A stretch of 39,359 nt of DNA from the IMG/VR virus record IMGVR_UViG_3300019776_000372, positions 1 to 39,359 of that record. The stretch is one strand, 5' to 3'. Positions 8,803 to 38,485 of the stretch are shown in pieces. The position numbers and the translations under genes were made by a program. The notes under the pieces are model-generated. The model worked only from the letters and a program-made list of their open reading frames with translations. It was not told the DNA's origin and did not search any database. The DNA is from a virus. Each line of letters starts with the position of its first letter. Positions within the stretch are counted from its first letter, which is position 1.

Positions 8803-9393
8803 ATGGAATTTCAGGAATTTCCAAAAATGGTACGGCTATCGCGCGAATGTGTCATCACCGAAAAAATCGACGGAACAAATGCGCAGATCCTGATTGCGGA
8901 AGATGGCCGAATTACGGTCGGCTCTCGGACGCGATGGATCACGCCAGAAGACGACAACTTTGGCTTTGCTGGCTGGGTGGCCGAGCACGCAGACGAATTG
9001 CGTGCACTTGGCCCGGGGCGCCATTTTGGCGAGTGGTGGGGCGCTGGTATCCAGCGAAAGTACAACCAGACTGAAAAACGTTTCAGCCTGTTCAACACCT
9101 TGCGATGGTGCGCGCATGATGCGGAGCCTGCGCTGATACCGTCTGCAGACCCTCGTGCTGAACCCAAGTACCAGACCCGCGCGCCTGCTTGTGTTGGCGT
9201 GGTGCCTGTTTTGTACCGTGGCCTGTTCGACACGAATGCAGTTGATGCTGCTATTACTCTGCTACGCGAGGACGGCAGCGCAGCCGCGCCAGGCTTTATG
9301 AAGCCCGAGGGGATCGTGGTGTTCCATGTCGCCGGGAATGTTGGCTTCAAAAAGACGCTGGAAAAAGACGAAGTTCCCAAAGCATTGCAGTAA
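8803..9393 (+). CDS. RNA ligase (Rnl2-like nucleotidyltransferase)
   Basis: This 196-residue protein carries the nucleotidyltransferase motifs of ATP-dependent ligases. Motif I is EKIDGTNA, with Lys21 as the predicted AMP-accepting residue. A GEWWGAGIQRKY segment serves as motif III/IIIa, EGIVVFH as motif IV, and FKKTLEKDE as the lysine-bearing motif V near the C-terminus. The size matches the catalytic domain alone, without the C-terminal domain of T4 Rnl2. The likely role is sealing RNA nicks, for example in damaged tRNA. It stands alone between two terminator hairpins, like an independently acquired cassette. Confidence 0.85.
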   Translation: MEFQEFPKMVRLSRECVITEKIDGTNAQILIAEDGRITVGSRTRWITPEDDNFGFAGWVAEHADELRALGPGRHFGEWWGAGIQRKYNQTEKRFSLFNTLRWCAHDAEPALIPSADPRAEPKYQTRAPACVGVVPVLYRGLFDTNAVDAAITLLREDGSAAAPGFMKPEGIVVFHVAGNVGFKKTLEKDEVPKALQ

Positions 9394-9398
9394 CACCC

Positions 9399-9422
9399 CG
9401 CCCCTCCCAAGGGGCGTTTTTC
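9399..9422 (+). terminator. Intrinsic terminator-like hairpin
   Basis: CGCCCCT (9399-9405) pairs perfectly with AGGGGCG (9410-9416) and is followed by T-rich sequence. It separates the RNA ligase from the excisionase gene. Confidence 0.75.
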
Positions 9423-9435
9423 ATAGGGGAGAGAG

Positions 9436-9627
9436 ATGAACGACCTGATGACTTTGGCGGACATCAGCGCCGCAATGGAATTGAAGTATGCGTACACCAG
9501 GGATCGGCTGGTCAAGCGGCCAGACTTCCCGCGTCCCGTGGTATCTTTGTCACAGAAATGCAGGCGATGGAGTCGTGACGATTTCAACACTTGGCTGGGC
9601 AAGCACGCGAAGAAACTTGCCCGGTGA
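9436..9627 (+). CDS. AlpA/Xis-type excisionase or regulator
   Basis: This 63-residue protein has the AlpA/MerR-like helix-turn-helix layout: LMTLADISAAMELK, then RPDFPRPV and RRWSRDDFNTWLGKH. AlpA-family proteins bind DNA and act as excisionases or as activators of integrase genes. Its position directly before attP and the integrase supports the excisionase role. GGGGAGAG gives a ribosome site 4-5 nt upstream of the ATG. Confidence 0.75.
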   Translation: MNDLMTLADISAAMELKYAYTRDRLVKRPDFPRPVVSLSQKCRRWSRDDFNTWLGKHAKKLAR

Positions 9628-9632
9628 GTACG

Positions 9633-9647
9633 CACAAAATTACGCAC
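9633..9647 (+). repeat. attP arm-type direct repeat, left
   Basis: The 15-mer CACAAAATTACGCAC recurs exactly at 9840-9854, flanking the tRNA-like core at 9681-9701. A further partial copy (TACGCACA, 9628-9635) overlaps its left edge. Spacing and location fit arm-type sites for integrase or excisionase. Confidence 0.6.
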
Positions 9648-9680
9648 ACGCCCCCGCAAGGCGCATGCAGCCTCAATCTA

Positions 9681-9701
9681 CGATTCCGGCCCCGGGCACC
9701 A
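9681..9701 (+). other. Predicted attP core: 3' end of a tRNA gene
   Basis: The 21 bases read as the end of a tRNA: most of a T-loop (CGATT), the 3' half of the T-stem (CCGGC), the 3' half of a 7-bp acceptor stem (CCCGGGC), then A73 and CCA. No other part of a tRNA is present upstream, so it is a fragment. Temperate phages carry just such fragments as the attP core when they integrate into tRNA genes. A GCCCGGG acceptor with A73 fits tRNA-Leu of betaproteobacteria, from memory. It lies between excisionase and integrase, flanked by direct repeats. Confidence 0.75.
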
Positions 9702-9839
9702 TCGGCTAATTTCGCGGTTTCTTACGATTCTCGCTAATTGCCGGTTTTACAAGGTAGATCAAGCACTTATGGCGATTTCCGGCCCTTGCTGGAAGTCGCC
9801 ATTTTTGTTTTTCCTTGCCGGTTATTGCTACAGTCTCCC

Positions 9840-9854
9840 CACAAAATTACGCAC
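9840..9854 (+). repeat. attP arm-type direct repeat, right
   Basis: Exact copy of the 15-mer at 9633-9647, 207 bp downstream. It lies immediately before the integrase start, so bound Int or Xis could also affect int expression. Confidence 0.6.
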
Positions 9855-9868
9855 GGTGGGGAATACGC

Positions 9869-10798
9869 ATGGCATCGATCAAGCCGCACGGAGACCAATG
9901 GAGAGCGCAGATCGCACGCAAGGGAGTGCGCAAATCGGCGGTATGGCCGACCAAGCGCGAGGCGGTGGCTTGGGCCAACAGGGTCGAGGCTGAAATTGAT
10001 GCTGGATTGCAACGCGGCCACACGCTGGCAGAGGCGTGCACCAAGTACATAGAAACCGCATCCAAGGCCAAGCGCGACGCAGTGGCATGGGAGACGCTGC
10101 GGCTAAAAGCCTTTCAGGCGCACTTTGGCGATGTTGCTCTGGCGTCGATCACCAGCGAAATGATTGGGGAGTGGCGGGACAAGCGATTGGAGACGGTCAC
10201 TGGGTCCACCGTGCTGCGCGAGGTGAATCTGTACCGCAACATGTTCACGCTGGCAGTGGATGAATGGAGATGGCTGGACGAATCGCCATTCAAGGGCGTG
10301 CGGCTACCGAAGGAAAACCCTCCCCGGGAACCTGTGTGGCCCTGGCAATTGATCAAGCGGGTGTTGCGCGCACGGCGGGTGGACAAGACTGCAGAGATGC
10401 AAGCCGCTTTCAGGATCGCTTTGCACACCGGGCTGCGGCTGAAAGAGATTCTGGGGTGTTCTTTCGACCCTCAACGAAACGTGATCATCATCCCGCCGTC
10501 CAAGACCGAGAACCGCCCTACCATCGTCCCCACGGTCGCCCGGGCGCGTAGAGTGCTGATGAACATGCCGAAGTTCACAGTAGGCCCGAACGAGGGCAGC
10601 ACACTGTTCAGCACGCTGCACCACGAATTGTTGATTGAAGGATTGACCTTCCACGACACCCGGGCGACGGCATTGACGCTGCTTGCCCGGAAAATGGATG
10701 TGCTGACTCTTGCCCGCATCTCGCGACACAAGGACTTGAACATCCTGATGAAGCGCTACTACAGGGAAACCCCGGAACAGATTTCAGCGCGGCTGTGA
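9869..10798 (+). CDS. int: Tyrosine-recombinase integrase
   Basis: This 309-residue protein has a basic N-terminal arm-binding region (residues 1-45, MASIKPHGDQW...), a core-binding SAM-like domain (about 50-140) and a catalytic domain. Catalytic residues are visible: Arg190 (HTGLRLKE), Lys212 (SKTENRP), His262 and Arg265 (FHDTR), His287 (ISRHKDL) and Tyr297/298 (MKRYYRE). The ATG at 9869 is preferred over an in-frame start at 9815, which would begin before the arm repeat and add residues unlike the family. The gene ends 15 nt inside the oppositely oriented Rz gene. Confidence 0.93.
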   Translation: MASIKPHGDQWRAQIARKGVRKSAVWPTKREAVAWANRVEAEIDAGLQRGHTLAEACTKYIETASKAKRDAVAWETLRLKAFQAHFGDVALASITSEMIGEWRDKRLETVTGSTVLREVNLYRNMFTLAVDEWRWLDESPFKGVRLPKENPPREPVWPWQLIKRVLRARRVDKTAEMQAAFRIALHTGLRLKEILGCSFDPQRNVIIIPPSKTENRPTIVPTVARARRVLMNMPKFTVGPNEGSTLFSTLHHELLIEGLTFHDTRATALTLLARKMDVLTLARISRHKDLNILMKRYYRETPEQISARL

Positions 10799-11251
10799 CG
10801 GCCACGCCTGCTGCAGCATTAGTGCGTCACCAGCGTGTCGGTCAGCCGCTTCTGCCACTGCTCGATATTCACCGACGCACGCTCCGAGTAGCTCTGCTGC
10901 GGTATCGGCTCGCGCAATGAGGGCACTTGTGGAAGCGCTGGGGAGACTTGCACGGAATTCGTAGAGGGTGCCGCGCAGGCCGTCAGCAGTACGGCGGGCA
11001 GTAGCAGCATCAGCGCGCAGCTTGGTTTCGCGTTTCGTGGCTTCATTTTGGGCGTCCTGCAATTTCTGGTTGAAAGCGATCTCTTTGGCCCTGGTGTCGG
11101 CTTGGGCCTTGGCGGAGTCGGCGGCTTGCTGGGCTTTGATGCCGTTGATTTCGTTGCCCAGCCTCCAGCCCTGCACCTGCCAAGCTCCAGTAGCCGCAAC
11201 GGCACCCGCTACTAAAGCTGTAGCGACATAGGTGTACAGGCCAGGAATCAT
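10784..11251 (-). CDS. Rz-like i-spanin
   Basis: This 155-residue protein has an N-terminal membrane anchor (YVATALVAGAVAATGAW) followed by a long Ala/Gln/Lys-rich periplasmic coiled coil (about residues 35-105), the layout of Rz inner-membrane spanins. Rz and its partner Rz1 fuse the inner and outer membranes at the end of lysis. It overlaps the endolysin stop by ATGA, and the lipoprotein Rz1 is encoded inside it in another frame. Confidence 0.88.
   Translation of the reverse strand: MIPGLYTYVATALVAGAVAATGAWQVQGWRLGNEINGIKAQQAADSAKAQADTRAKEIAFNQKLQDAQNEATKRETKLRADAATARRTADGLRGTLYEFRASLPSASTSALIARADTAAELLGACVGEYRAVAEAADRHAGDALMLQQAWPSQPR
10819..11046 (-). CDS. Rz1-like o-spanin lipoprotein (embedded in Rz)
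   Basis: This 75-residue frame lies wholly inside the Rz gene. It has a basic N-terminus (MKPRNAKPSC), a hydrophobic segment and the lipobox LLTAC, with Cys24 as the first residue of the mature lipoprotein. The mature part is Pro/Ser-rich (APSTNSVQVSPALPQVP), as is usual for Rz1. Embedded Rz1 genes are typical of lambda-like spanin pairs. Confidence 0.85.
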   Translation of the reverse strand: MKPRNAKPSCALMLLLPAVLLTACAAPSTNSVQVSPALPQVPSLREPIPQQSYSERASVNIEQWQKRLTDTLVTH

Positions 11252-26296: not shown

Positions 26297-26577
26297 CGCT
26301 TCAGCCAGTTCAGCCAGCCGGGAGAACTCGACGACGCGATGGCTTCCTTGGTCAGCAGCTTCCCGCTGTCCACCATCGCCTCCACGTAGGTCTTGAACTT
26401 CTCCGCTGCGTGCACCATCAGGTACAGCTTTTCGCGGCCCTCCGCGTCTCGGGCTGGGGATTGCTCCCACGCTTTCATCAGGTCCGTTTTCCATGCGTCT
26501 AGTGCCTCTGCGAGCACCGGGTTGTCCTTCAACGCTTGCGCGTGTGCGGCCCGGTGGATTTGTTCAAGGTCGGTCAT
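26293..26577 (-). CDS. Small helical late protein after portal
   Basis: This 94-residue protein overlaps the portal gene end by 14 nt. It is almost entirely helical (LEQIHRAAHAQALKDNPVLAEALDAW, LMVHAAEKFKTYVEAMVDSGKLL). Proteins of this kind follow portal genes in several podovirus genomes. The function is not known. Confidence 0.65.
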   Translation of the reverse strand: MTDLEQIHRAAHAQALKDNPVLAEALDAWKTDLMKAWEQSPARDAEGREKLYLMVHAAEKFKTYVEAMVDSGKLLTKEAIASSSSPGWLNWLKR

Positions 26578-28609
26578 TGGTCATGCTCTGTTGCGCCCTA
26601 CCCTGCTGGTTGATCAGCGCGACTTCGATCTTTGTGCGGTTGTCGGCGTCGGTCTTGTAGCGGTCCAGTTCCAACTGCTGCGCGGCCAACTGGGCTTCGT
26701 ACTGCGCTTTCATCAACTCGCGCTCTGCGTCGCGTTGGTCGTTTGCCGCCTGCAGTTCCAACTGCATTTGCGTCTCGCGCTGCTTGGCTTGGGCCTGCAG
26801 GGATTCGCGCTGCATGGTCAACTGAGACTCAGCCTGGAACTTCTGCGCATCGGCCTGCAGCTCCATCTGCTTGATCATCACTTGCGGAGGCGGTGGCGGC
26901 TCCTTGGGTGGCTGAGCATCGGGGAAGTACTGCTCAGGTGTCGTAATCCCGGCGCCTTCTGCGAACTTCCGTGCAGCCAAGATAGCGGCTTGCGGAGGAA
27001 TTGCACCACCTTGCACCAACGGGCCTTGCATCTGGAAGATTTGCGACATGACAGCGCTGAGCTTGTCCTTTGACCCTGTACCCAGGCCCACATTGATGTG
27101 AATGTGGTATCCATCCACCCACTCGCGGGGATCGATGGTCATCCATTGCTTGAACAATTCGACCTGCTCGGCTTTGTTCTGGTAGCGGCAGACGCACTTC
27201 ATCATCTTTTCGAACAACTGGCGCACGGACTCAGCAGCCACGCGGGCCATGAGCTCCATTCGCTGGTCGGCCTTCTCGGTGATCAGCGAAACACCCGTTG
27301 CGGTGGGATTCAGCGCATCAGGCGACAGGCCTTGCGAGTAGCGCGTGAAGCCGGTGCGTTGTTCGCGCCACTGCTCACCCCACTCCACGAACTGCCAGGC
27401 GCTCTGATCCAGGCCACCTTGCGGGATGGGCTGCAGTGCGCCGATGCTCTTCATGCGGACCACGCCGCCCGGGCGGTTGTTCAGCAGGTCATCGAGGTTG
27501 ACTTGCCCCTCGACAATCCCGGTCCGCTGGTTGACCGATAGATACACGTTATCGGCCACCGCACGCATCAGCGATGTGCGCAGGCGCTGAGGCTGCAAGG
27601 CCTGATCCGCTGGGCATTCACCGAAGAACACATGCGGCATCGGGTTAGGGCAGAAAAAGACAAATGGATGGTCGTCGACCTTCTCATCCTCTTTGATCGT
27701 CTGCCCGATCATGAACACCCGGCGCCATTCAGGAATGCCGTCGTTGTCCTGGTCCAGTTTGATATAGCACTCAGAGCACAGATAGCGCTCCAGCTCACCA
27801 TCCGACTGGTCGAAGAACCACGGCGTTTGTGTGGCGGCACGCTCGATCTGCTCCATGTGCCAGCCATCCTCGGCGGCAACATTGGCAAGGTCGTAGCCAT
27901 CGGCTTCCAACTCTGCGCGAGTCTTGTAGAACTGATGCGCAATGAATGTCAGCGGCTCGCCGTAACGCGAGCGAGGATGCACGCGCATTTCCTCGGGCGG
28001 GCAACCCATCACGCGGCAGCGGCCCTTCTTCTCCACGCGCTTGACGGTGATATCCCACACCTCCAGCGGCTGGCCTTCCACCATGATCTCGCGCGCTTCC
28101 TGGCTGACAGGCTCTACATCAGAGTCTTTCAGCAGCTCCTCGACCTGTTCAGGCAACAGGCCCTGGTAGCTTTCCTCGGCGTCCTCTTCGTACTCTTCCC
28201 AGAAGACCTTGCCAAAGCCGACCTTCTGAATCAGGCCATCCAGAAACCACTGGTGCAGGAAGTTGAACCCTCGATTGCGCTTCCAGAATAGAAGTTTGAG
28301 GTATTCCCCGGCAATCTTGGCATCCTGCACGTACTCAGGGCTTGATGGCTCGCACTCCATGGCGTCCTGAGACTGCACAAACGGGCGCAGGAGCGATGGA
28401 AGCATCCAGTTGACCGTATCGGCAACGTCAGACGAAACGATGCTGGAGCGGTCTGGAATGTCGGGGGCGGCAAGTTCGCCCGTTGCTTCGGCCTTGTAGT
28501 ACTGGAGATTGCGCAGACGGATGCGGCTGATCTCCGTTCCGGGCGCACCCAGTGACTGCCGCAGCTCCTTTTCCAGGATGGCGGTGAGTTCTGGTTTGCT
28601 GTATTTCAT
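26564..28609 (-). CDS. Portal (head-tail connector) protein
   Basis: This 681-residue protein has the P22/SU10-type portal layout: ITEKADQ near the centre, SSDVADTVNWMLPSLLRPF early, and FQFVE-like and GLSPDALNPTATGVS segments in the wing and stem. A long Gln/Glu/Ala coiled coil forms the C-terminal barrel (about 590-675). The length fits portals of SU10-like podoviruses. It forms the dodecameric DNA gate between head and adaptor. It lies 32 nt after the large terminase. Confidence 0.88.
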   Translation of the reverse strand: MKYSKPELTAILEKELRQSLGAPGTEISRIRLRNLQYYKAEATGELAAPDIPDRSSIVSSDVADTVNWMLPSLLRPFVQSQDAMECEPSSPEYVQDAKIAGEYLKLLFWKRNRGFNFLHQWFLDGLIQKVGFGKVFWEEYEEDAEESYQGLLPEQVEELLKDSDVEPVSQEAREIMVEGQPLEVWDITVKRVEKKGRCRVMGCPPEEMRVHPRSRYGEPLTFIAHQFYKTRAELEADGYDLANVAAEDGWHMEQIERAATQTPWFFDQSDGELERYLCSECYIKLDQDNDGIPEWRRVFMIGQTIKEDEKVDDHPFVFFCPNPMPHVFFGECPADQALQPQRLRTSLMRAVADNVYLSVNQRTGIVEGQVNLDDLLNNRPGGVVRMKSIGALQPIPQGGLDQSAWQFVEWGEQWREQRTGFTRYSQGLSPDALNPTATGVSLITEKADQRMELMARVAAESVRQLFEKMMKCVCRYQNKAEQVELFKQWMTIDPREWVDGYHIHINVGLGTGSKDKLSAVMSQIFQMQGPLVQGGAIPPQAAILAARKFAEGAGITTPEQYFPDAQPPKEPPPPPQVMIKQMELQADAQKFQAESQLTMQRESLQAQAKQRETQMQLELQAANDQRDAERELMKAQYEAQLAAQQLELDRYKTDADNRTKIEVALINQQGRAQQSMTNDRP

Positions 28610-28640
28610 GTATGGGTCGCTTCTCAGCGATGCCTATGGG

Positions 28641-29909
28641 TTATGCGTAGCTCAGCTTTTGATAGCGGATCGCTCCGCCCCATTCGTCGTTGCTCAACTG
28701 GTCAGCCACCAAAGCCAGATAGCGGAATGCATCCGCTCCGTGGCTATATGCGTCGTGCAGTGGCTGTCCTGGCTCTCGGGTCTGTTGGTTGATGTGCCTG
28801 CGATAGCGCTTCAAGCACTCCACCAGGCGCCCGGTCTTGTCTTTGTCGAAGTAGATGCGCGGGAACACCTCTCGCGCAGCCTTGATGCCGGATTCAATGT
28901 CCATCCGTGGGATGCCAGGGTTCTGTGTGTCCCCAGGCACTGACAGGCCCATCGCGGCTAGGATCTCCTGCGCGCTCTTGCCAGTCTTGAAGTCCTTCGT
29001 GTACCCATCGTGCGGCAGGTACTGATTGCCCCAATTGAGGCCCTTCGCCTTCAAGTCCTGGGCGTAGTCGCTCAGAGTGCGGTGCGAGTCCTCGATGTAG
29101 TCAATCACCCGGATCTCTGACGCCGACCGCTGGACAAGGATGATCGACATGCTGTCGTTCCAGCCCAAGTCCCACACACCGTGCACTTTCAGCAGGGGGT
29201 CGTATGGCACCTCACGAATGCGGCCCTTGCTCTCAGCTCCAGCCACTTCATCGAAGTAGATGGCACCCTCGACCGCTGGCATACAGCGGCCCTCCCAGAT
29301 GTGCCCGTATTCCTCGGGCTTCATCGTGTTCTCTGCGTGGACGCGCTCAGCCTCCAGCACATCCGGGAACCACGGGTTGTCCGCGTAGTTCATCAAGATC
29401 GAGATGCAATCAGGCGGCGGGCTCTTGACGAACCGCACATAGGTTTCGTCTGTGTCCAACTGCGGGTTGAACGTCACCCAAATCTCTGACCCTGGCTTGC
29501 GGATCGTGGGCAGCAGGACATTCCATGAGGTCTTGCTCACCGCGTGGGCTTCTTCAACCCACACCCTATCCACACCCTCATAGGACTTGATCGAGTCCAC
29601 AGTGTGGCTCTGCAAGCCTGCAAATGTGAACTCGGTCCCGTTCTTTCCCCGGATGACTGTCTGCTGCACCTCGTAGAAGCGGGACAGGCCCATGGCTTCT
29701 ATCTGGTCGCTCAACAGTTTGTGCACCGAGTCGGCCAGTGACTTTTGCACCTCGCGGGTACACAGCACGCGCAGGGGCTTTTGCACACCCTCAAGAAGTA
29801 GCGCTCTGGCAAACCCCCAAGACTTCCCCGAACCGCGCCCACCATAGGCGCACTTGTACCGGGCTGGCTTAAACAGGAAGGCCAGTTTGTCCGGGAACTC
29901 GACGTTCAT
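28641..29909 (-). CDS. terL: Terminase large subunit
   Basis: This 422-residue protein has a Walker A motif GGRGSGKS (residues 23-30), a Walker B with acidic pair RVWVEE (115-120) and coupling motif FNPQ (148). The C-terminal RNase H-like nuclease has an Asp in WDLGWND (247) and a late HDAYSHGADAFRY segment. It belongs to the PBSX/Terminase_3 group. It cuts and translocates DNA into the prohead. It overlaps the small subunit gene by ATGA. Confidence 0.93.
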   Translation of the reverse strand: MNVEFPDKLAFLFKPARYKCAYGGRGSGKSWGFARALLLEGVQKPLRVLCTREVQKSLADSVHKLLSDQIEAMGLSRFYEVQQTVIRGKNGTEFTFAGLQSHTVDSIKSYEGVDRVWVEEAHAVSKTSWNVLLPTIRKPGSEIWVTFNPQLDTDETYVRFVKSPPPDCISILMNYADNPWFPDVLEAERVHAENTMKPEEYGHIWEGRCMPAVEGAIYFDEVAGAESKGRIREVPYDPLLKVHGVWDLGWNDSMSIILVQRSASEIRVIDYIEDSHRTLSDYAQDLKAKGLNWGNQYLPHDGYTKDFKTGKSAQEILAAMGLSVPGDTQNPGIPRMDIESGIKAAREVFPRIYFDKDKTGRLVECLKRYRRHINQQTREPGQPLHDAYSHGADAFRYLALVADQLSNDEWGGAIRYQKLSYA

Positions 29910-37540: not shown

Positions 37541-37780
37541 TCAGGCCGCTTGGGTGGGCTTGGCTTTGCGGGCGGGCTTGGCCAGCTCGGGCCAGATCAG
37601 GTGCCAGTCGTCGGGGCGCAGGTCTCGGCGGGTGACTCCCAGCTCTGTTTCGACGGCTGCGCAGTGCTCCACGGGGACACCGCGATCCATCCAGTTGCTG
37701 AGCCTCTGAGGGGAAACCCCCAAAAGATCGGCCGAGACCTTCAGTCCACGGGACTCGACAGCTTGCTGAAGTGTTTTCAT
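37541..37780 (-). CDS. Cro-like repressor (YdaS type)
   Basis: This protein of about 79 residues starts at MKTLQQAVESRG. Upstream in-frame ATGs at 37795 and 37789 lie within the promoter/operator region, so the third ATG is preferred. The helix-turn-helix is VSADLLGVSPQRLSNWMDRG, and VTRRDLRPDDWHLIWPEL is the signature ending of the YdaS/Cro-like family. It diverges from the CI-like repressor, so it probably turns off repressor synthesis in lytic growth. If transcription starts as predicted, the mRNA would have almost no leader. Confidence 0.8.
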   Translation of the reverse strand: MKTLQQAVESRGLKVSADLLGVSPQRLSNWMDRGVPVEHCAAVETELGVTRRDLRPDDWHLIWPELAKPARKAKPTQAA

Positions 37781-37788
37781 GGGCGACA

Positions 37789-37817
37789 TTTTCACATGAT
37801 GTGAATATCAATGTCAA
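37789..37817 (-). promoter_or_regulatory. Predicted cro (pR-like) promoter
   Basis: On the minus strand TTGACA lies at 37817-37812 and, after a 17-bp spacer, TGAAAA at 37794-37789. The -35 is perfect and the -10 weak (3 of 6). The palindromic operator 37791-37805 sits between and over the -10. Predicted transcription would start near 37782, close to the ATG at 37780. Confidence 0.5.
37791..37805. promoter_or_regulatory. Operator candidate (oR-like)
   Basis: TTCACATGATGTGAA is a 15-bp inverted repeat with perfect 6-bp arms around TGA. It lies in the divergent region between cro and the CI-like gene, over the minus-strand -10. A near copy overlaps the pL-like promoter (39132-39146), which ties both to one repressor. 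Confidence 0.65.
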
Positions 37818-37861
37818 CAGCCCGTGAAGCGATGGACTCACATTTTGTTTATTCTTCGGCG

Positions 37862-38485
37862 ATGACAAGACCGATAGACACAGCGCTAAAACTGGCGAAG
37901 GCAAAGGGCCTCACACAAACCGCCTTTGCCGCCCTGCTGGATGCCACGTCGGCCGATATTTCCAATTGGAAAAAGCGAGGGATGCCCGCAGAACGACACC
38001 TTGATGCGGCGACGGCGCTGGGCGTGACGGTCGATGCGCTACTTGCTGGAAGCGTCGCCAACACAGAGCCAGGCCCGGACCTGCGCGGCAAGGTGCCGCT
38101 GATTTCCTGGGTGCAGGCTGGAGAGTGGTGCCACGCGGCAGACCCGCACTTACCTGGTCAGGCCGACAGGTGGATGGACTGCCCAGTGACTCACAGCGGA
38201 AGCACATTTGCGCTCAGGGTTCGCGGCGACTCCATGACCGCGCCCAGCGGCAACAGCCGGACCTACCCCGAAGGCTGCTATATCTTTGTTGACCCGGAGC
38301 GCAAAAACCCGGTGAATGGTGATCGCGTGGTTGCCTGTCTCGATGGCACCGACGAAGTGACGTTCAAGGTGTACAAGAACGAGGACGGCCGCCAGTGGCT
38401 TCAGCCGCTGAACCCGTCACATGAGCCAATCCGGGAGAAGTTCCACATCCTGGGCACGGTGCTGGGCAAGTGGGAGGATGGGTGA
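37862..38485 (+). CDS. CI/LexA-like prophage repressor
   Basis: This 207-residue protein has an N-terminal XRE helix-turn-helix (about 18-38, LTQTAFAALLDATSADISNW) and a C-terminal S24 peptidase domain. Self-cleavage features are Ala86-Gly87 in WVQAGEW, Ser124 in RGDSM and Lys169 in TFKVY, with the usual spacing. RecA-stimulated cleavage (SOS induction) is expected. The ATG at 37862 is favoured. A longer frame from 37811 has no support from the family. TATTCT at 37850-37855 would start transcription near the ATG, so the mRNA may be leaderless, as for lambda cI. Confidence 0.9.
   Translation: MTRPIDTALKLAKAKGLTQTAFAALLDATSADISNWKKRGMPAERHLDAATALGVTVDALLAGSVANTEPGPDLRGKVPLISWVQAGEWCHAADPHLPGQADRWMDCPVTHSGSTFALRVRGDSMTAPSGNSRTYPEGCYIFVDPERKNPVNGDRVVACLDGTDEVTFKVYKNEDGRQWLQPLNPSHEPIREKFHILGTVLGKWEDG

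Follow-up and report, generated by a model that had tools for sequence, protein, structure and literature searches.

The attachment site (attP) of phage lambda consists of a core between P and P′ arms, with arm repeats, a site for integration host factor (IHF), and an excisionase-like (xis-like) gene and the integrase gene (int) nearby. The general architecture of such integrase (Int) systems is described in PMC2951348, as is the KplE1/IntS system at argW, a "tRNA precedes int" (STI) arrangement whose int promoter and arm sites overlap, a configuration shown to confer negative autoregulation. For ICEKp1, which resides at tRNA-Asn, integration relocates the terminator of the tRNA to the opposite end of the element, and stem-loops between the tRNA and int constitute a potential terminator (PMC13023037). 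phiC725A, an F116-like Pseudomonas podovirus, carries its attP upstream of the integrase and inserts at a tRNA locus (PMC5217972). A comparable region lies at positions 9,628–9,868 of IMG/VR record IMGVR_UViG_3300019776_000372, a viral sequence of 39,359 nucleotides (nt) referred to here as the window. With a probability of about 0.94, this region is a lambda-type attP beside the int of a temperate phage that uses a tyrosine integrase and targets tRNA-Leu(CAA). The assignment draws on sequence comparison, namely of the core, the target tRNA, the attL of close relatives, the attR of distant relatives, coupled arm motifs, and a conserved terminator; protein binding, IHF involvement, autorepression, terminator activity, and the role of the excisionase are predictions from the same source.

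Core and target tRNA

9681–9701, + strand: attP core, the tRNA-Leu(CAA) 3′ end from T-loop to CCA, assigned from exact tRNA gene matches and provirus junctions

The core, CGATTCCGGCCCCGGGCACCA, is present as a single copy on the + strand, and the window holds no other copy at up to five mismatches. It comprises part of the T-loop (CGATT), the 3′ strands of the T-stem (CCGGC) and the acceptor stem (CCCGGGC), A73, and CCA. The match begins at 9681, since position 9680 is A and the tRNA has T. ARAGORN finds no tRNA gene in the window, in keeping with the original prediction of an exact tRNA 3′ end that lacks a tRNA body. Among whole tRNA genes identified with ARAGORN in fetched bacterial contigs, the exact 21-mer closes at least 47 tRNA-Leu(CAA) and at least 46 tRNA-Leu(TAA) genes; a tRNA-Leu had indeed been anticipated. 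Among the matches listed, the 21-mer is common to the tRNA-Leu(CAA/TAA) 3′ ends of many beta- and gammaproteobacteria, and the accompanying suggestion that it leads directly to the name of the host does not hold.

Exact 21-mer matches among virus contigs include two proviruses, G001 (contig stretch L204) and G002 (L232). In both, a complete tRNA-Leu(CAA) is followed by window-like sequence from the core through the integrase, with DNA identities to the window of 87% (G001) and 78% (G002) over 1.1 kb and integrase identities of 95% and 75%, respectively. G002 also has structural genes 93–94% identical to those of the window over long stretches. By their order of elements, these tRNA-Leu(CAA)–core–P′–int junctions are attL. 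The identity between the host tRNA 3′ end and the core is 21 nt, and the tRNA is intact at both attL, which agrees with the predicted attP at a tRNA-Leu with a GCCCGGG acceptor whose 3′ end is restored.

Two other interpretations of the core have to be weighed. In many proteobacterial genomes tRNA-Leu(TAA) also closes with the 21-mer, and the phage might therefore target that gene or another locus. However, both close relatives reside in tRNA-Leu(CAA), their hosts are nearest to Acidovorax, and among relatives with integrase identities above 50% the searches made revealed none in tRNA-Leu(TAA), which renders a different target highly improbable; the comparisons support tRNA-Leu(CAA) as the target of the window phage. 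Phages can also carry tRNA genes and pieces, and the 21-mer could be what is left of a decayed tRNA, or a fragment of a tRNA encoded by the phage, rather than an active core. This is hardly credible for a sequence that lies between an excisionase-like gene and int, is exactly identical to the tRNA end over 21 nt, and coincides exactly with provirus junctions.

The host flank of G001 and G002, whose gene upstream of the tRNA we take to be cysM, has its nearest matches in Acidovorax sp. NO-1 and a metagenome-assembled Acidovorax genome (90–92%), other Comamonadaceae reaching ~81–86%. It is this flank, and not the 21-mer, that suggests an Acidovorax-like host.

Distant integrases and range of targets

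A sample of 401 genomes from the family of Acidovorax sp. NO-1 and 47 from its genus contains six further integrases with 51–59% identity to that of the window. They are preceded by tRNA-Leu(CAA) in two cases and tRNA-Arg(CCT) in three; for one, no tRNA was found. Four of these distant relatives have both attL and attR, the core being duplicated at the two junctions and ending exactly at the tRNA CCA in each:

G034: tRNA-Leu(CAA), core 24 nt, prophage 46.0 kb
G310: tRNA-Arg(CCT), core 23 nt, prophage 38.8 kb
G121: tRNA-Arg(CCT), core 16 nt, prophage 36.9 kb
G436: tRNA-Arg(CCT), core 23 nt

Because the attL/attR identity in G121 is 16 nt, strand exchange in this clade probably takes place within the last 16 nt of the core, i.e., the acceptor and the end of the T-stem. 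Eight more attP-like stretches with a tRNA-Leu core occur in virus contigs beside integrases of 49–72% identity.

The expectation that related integrases would adjoin the same core stands for the close relatives, which keep the tRNA-Leu(CAA) core, and fails for some relatives of 52–57% identity. Since the latter adjoin tRNA-Arg(CCT), the integrase predicts the target tRNA at close range only. Of nine records with related integrases, several of which are fragments, one has a window-like terminase. Such a terminase is absent from two of them measuring 33 and 41 kb, an indication that the int–attP module moves between phage backbones.

Arm repeats

9629–9647, + strand: putative P-arm integrase sites TACGCAC (9629–9635 and 9641–9647), assigned from the 15-mer repeat and P/P′ coupling
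9836–9870, + strand: putative P′-arm sites TCCCCAC (9836–9842), TACGCAC (9848–9854), and TACGCAT (9864–9870), overlapping the int leader

The 15-mer CACAAAATTACGCAC is duplicated exactly on either side of the core, at 9633–9647 and 9840–9854, as had been noted originally; an exact repeat of this length would arise in a stretch of ~270 bases with an estimated chance of ~3e-5. Each half of the repeat falls in a pair of TACGCAC-like units spaced 12 bp (9629 and 9641 in P, 9836 and 9848 in P′), with a further TACGCAT at 9864. Arm-type repeats are thereby present on both sides of the core, as in heterobivalent Int systems.

Coupling between the arms was evaluated over 12 attP sites as the best ungapped match between the P arm (the 75 nt preceding the core) and the int-proximal P′ arm (60 nt). 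Within-phage matches sum to 117, as opposed to 83.3 ± 6.2 for permuted partners, and none of 20,000 permutations reaches 117; with near-duplicates removed, the figure is 1 in 10,000. Neither control comparison, one with the core-proximal portion of P′ and the other reversed, gives significant coupling. The arm unit varies by phage and is alike on both sides, being CCCGAA in one, CCAGAAATTTAC in another, and TACGCAC in the window, a pattern expected if the arm-binding domain of each integrase selects its own motif on both sides.

The repeats could instead be repressor operators or chance repeats, with only the core being of importance. Single TTACGCAC-like units are indeed no commoner in the window than chance, and an inverted repeat, CCCCAC/GTGGGG (9837–9842/9856–9861), encloses one copy over the int ribosome-binding site and could be an operator or a ribosome-binding-site hairpin. 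Covariation of this hairpin, judged by eye, was too weak to claim. Yet the motif varies among phages while P matches P′ within each, with a summed match that no permutation equals and with negative controls, and the units flank the core at the arm positions known for lambda-type systems. The operator or chance explanation consequently has little prospect of being correct, and the direct repeats appear to behave as integrase arm sites, a case built on the exact repeat together with the coupling test because single-unit counts are unenriched.

Terminator and int promoter in the P′ arm

9757–9769, + strand: IHF-like site GATCAAGCACTTA, one mismatch to WATCAANNNNTTR, kept in G001 and G002; weak alone
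9769–9812, + strand: predicted intrinsic terminator, 15-pair stem and T-tail, kept in G001 and G002
9826–9834, + strand: extended -10 of the presumed int promoter, TGCTACAGT, the same 9-mer in G001, G002, and G310

The RNA fold of 9760–9815 has an energy of -28.8 kcal/mol (z -8.2). In a terminator scan of uninterrupted tRNA-Leu genes, 34 of 107 have a terminator just downstream, with 6.8 expected. After integration the native terminator lies beyond attR, as in the right flank of G034, and the P′-arm terminator would replace it. A terminator-like hairpin is found in 11 of 37 non-redundant core-to-int stretches from diverse phages at the same tRNA (~1.6 expected from shuffles); attP-borne terminators are therefore recurrent, and not universal, in phages at tRNA-Leu. 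It is a tentative proposal, with somewhat less than even odds, that the built-in terminator serves a double role, repairing tRNA termination and shielding an autoregulated int from the tRNA promoter, and that this recurs in diverse phages. In other phages at the same tRNA (L157 824–880, L152, L175, and L124), P′ opens with CCATAGC…GCTATGG and a T-run, a hairpin overlapping the tRNA CCA.

The extended -10, TGCTACAGT, lies just before the P′-arm sites, which the presumed int promoter overlaps in the sequence. A promoter scan finds no -35/-10 pair.

Integrase, putative excisionase, and phage genome

9436–9627, + strand: putative excisionase gene (helix-turn-helix (HTH), 63 amino acids (aa)), adjoining the P arm on its upstream side; hits phrog_668 HTH DNA-binding protein at E 6.5e-6 and also phrog_4996
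9869–10798, + strand: tyrosine integrase gene (309 aa); matches PF00589 (E 1.1e-7) and phrog_1 integrase (E 6.4e-41)

The integrase contains the catalytic R…HxxR…H…Y series, with the motifs GLRLKE (188), HDTR (262), SRHK (285), and RYYRE (296), and has no sequence relatives in the PDB at E 0.001. In 10 of 11 other attP/attR sites, a small open reading frame (ORF) homologous to the putative excisionase gene ends 8–44 nt short of the core; in the eleventh (L174), the upstream sequence likewise encodes such a homologue.

The ends of the window share a 34-bp terminal repeat; therefore, the window is probably a complete, circularised, unintegrated phage genome, and the site an uninterrupted attP. 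It looks like a small F116-related podovirus. In the stretch 26564–29909, the terminase shares 57% identity with the terminases of F116-like Pseudomonas phages, and the portal has its match in the SU10 portal family. The likely lysogeny switch (37541–38485) consists of a divergent YdaS-like gene together with the gene of an S24 CI-type repressor. An RNA ligase gene (8803–9393; PF09414, phrog_548) lies just upstream of the putative excisionase gene, near attP.

Weighing of the evidence and proposed mechanism

Several observations count against a lambda-type attP at tRNA-Leu(CAA). Prophages with related integrases had been predicted at this core; two close proviruses with attL bear this out, and the attR of G001 and G002 was looked for and not recovered. 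The G002 record stops inside the early region without attR, and the far end of G001 (L246 619–1786) has a second, different integrase adjoining tRNA-Pro(TGG) and infA, also without the attR core. The window phage itself was not encountered as a prophage, and its host is for this reason deduced from relatives. In favour of the site, tRNA-Leu in G162 joins directly to 40 nt of the G034 post-attR flank; this flank, however, resembles the P′ arm of another element, which makes the junction weaker evidence than a genuinely empty site would be. One mismatch separates the IHF-like site from WATCAANNNNTTR, and chance could account for it.

With its two integrases, G001 either arose by recombination between two prophages or reflects an incorrectly joined assembly. 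The idea that its far flank of tRNA-Pro(TGG) and infA is a normal neighbour of tRNA-Leu(CAA) was unsupported: no tRNA-Pro is near tRNA-Leu in the fetched Acidovorax stretches, and in G007 the tRNA-Leu(CAA) and tRNA-Pro/infA sites are on separate contigs (C66 and C89).

For a lambda-type attP, Int and host DNA-bending proteins would assemble on the P arm (9629–9647), the core (9681–9701), and the P′ arm (9836–9870), and recombination would occur between the core and its identical counterpart at the 3′ end of the tRNA-Leu(CAA) gene of the host. The host tRNA would be complete after integration because the phage supplies the same 3′ end. The phage terminator (9769–9812) would substitute for the native one, displaced to the far prophage end, and would also shield int from the tRNA promoter. 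int would be transcribed from its own promoter; because this promoter overlaps the P′-arm sites, Int binding should repress it. The small upstream HTH gene would act as the excisionase.

Comparison with known systems

The analysis connects the phage genome with one particular insertion gene and, via relatives, with Acidovorax-like hosts. With ~12 related attP sites, integrase arm sites become readable by comparison alone, and the phage appears to repair the transcription stop of the tRNA as well as its end.

Like lambda attP/Int, the window has a core between P and P′ arms, arm repeats on both sides, a candidate IHF-like P′ site, and an adjoining putative excisionase gene and int. It differs in targeting a tRNA 3′ end, in arm motif and spacing, in the predicted terminator inside P′, and in the presumed int promoter over the P′-arm sites. 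With KplE1/IntS it shares the common orientation of tRNA, core, P′, and int, a core that reaches the tRNA 3′ end, and a presumed int promoter over arm sites; the TGCTACAGT promoter layout matches the self-repression layout of KplE1. In contrast to KplE1, the window has tRNA-Leu(CAA) instead of argW, a different integrase, and a predicted intrinsic terminator of canonical form that separates tRNA from int. ICEKp1 is alike in its displaced tRNA terminator and its stem-loops between tRNA and int. However, transcription of its int starts at the tRNA promoter and is only attenuated, whereas the strong predicted terminator of the window, followed by an apparently separate int promoter, suggests insulation of int.

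F116-like Pseudomonas podoviruses resemble the window in their terminase and, for phiC725A, in attP–integrase order and tRNA locus, but the window, at 39 kb, is smaller than their genomes of ~50–65 kb. Among named phages, the best-matching integrases reach no more than 38% identity, with none F116-like among the matches listed, and a DNA search of named phages with 9400–10800 gave no match. Taken as a whole, the arrangement is ordinary and well known, and the window site is a clear example of it.
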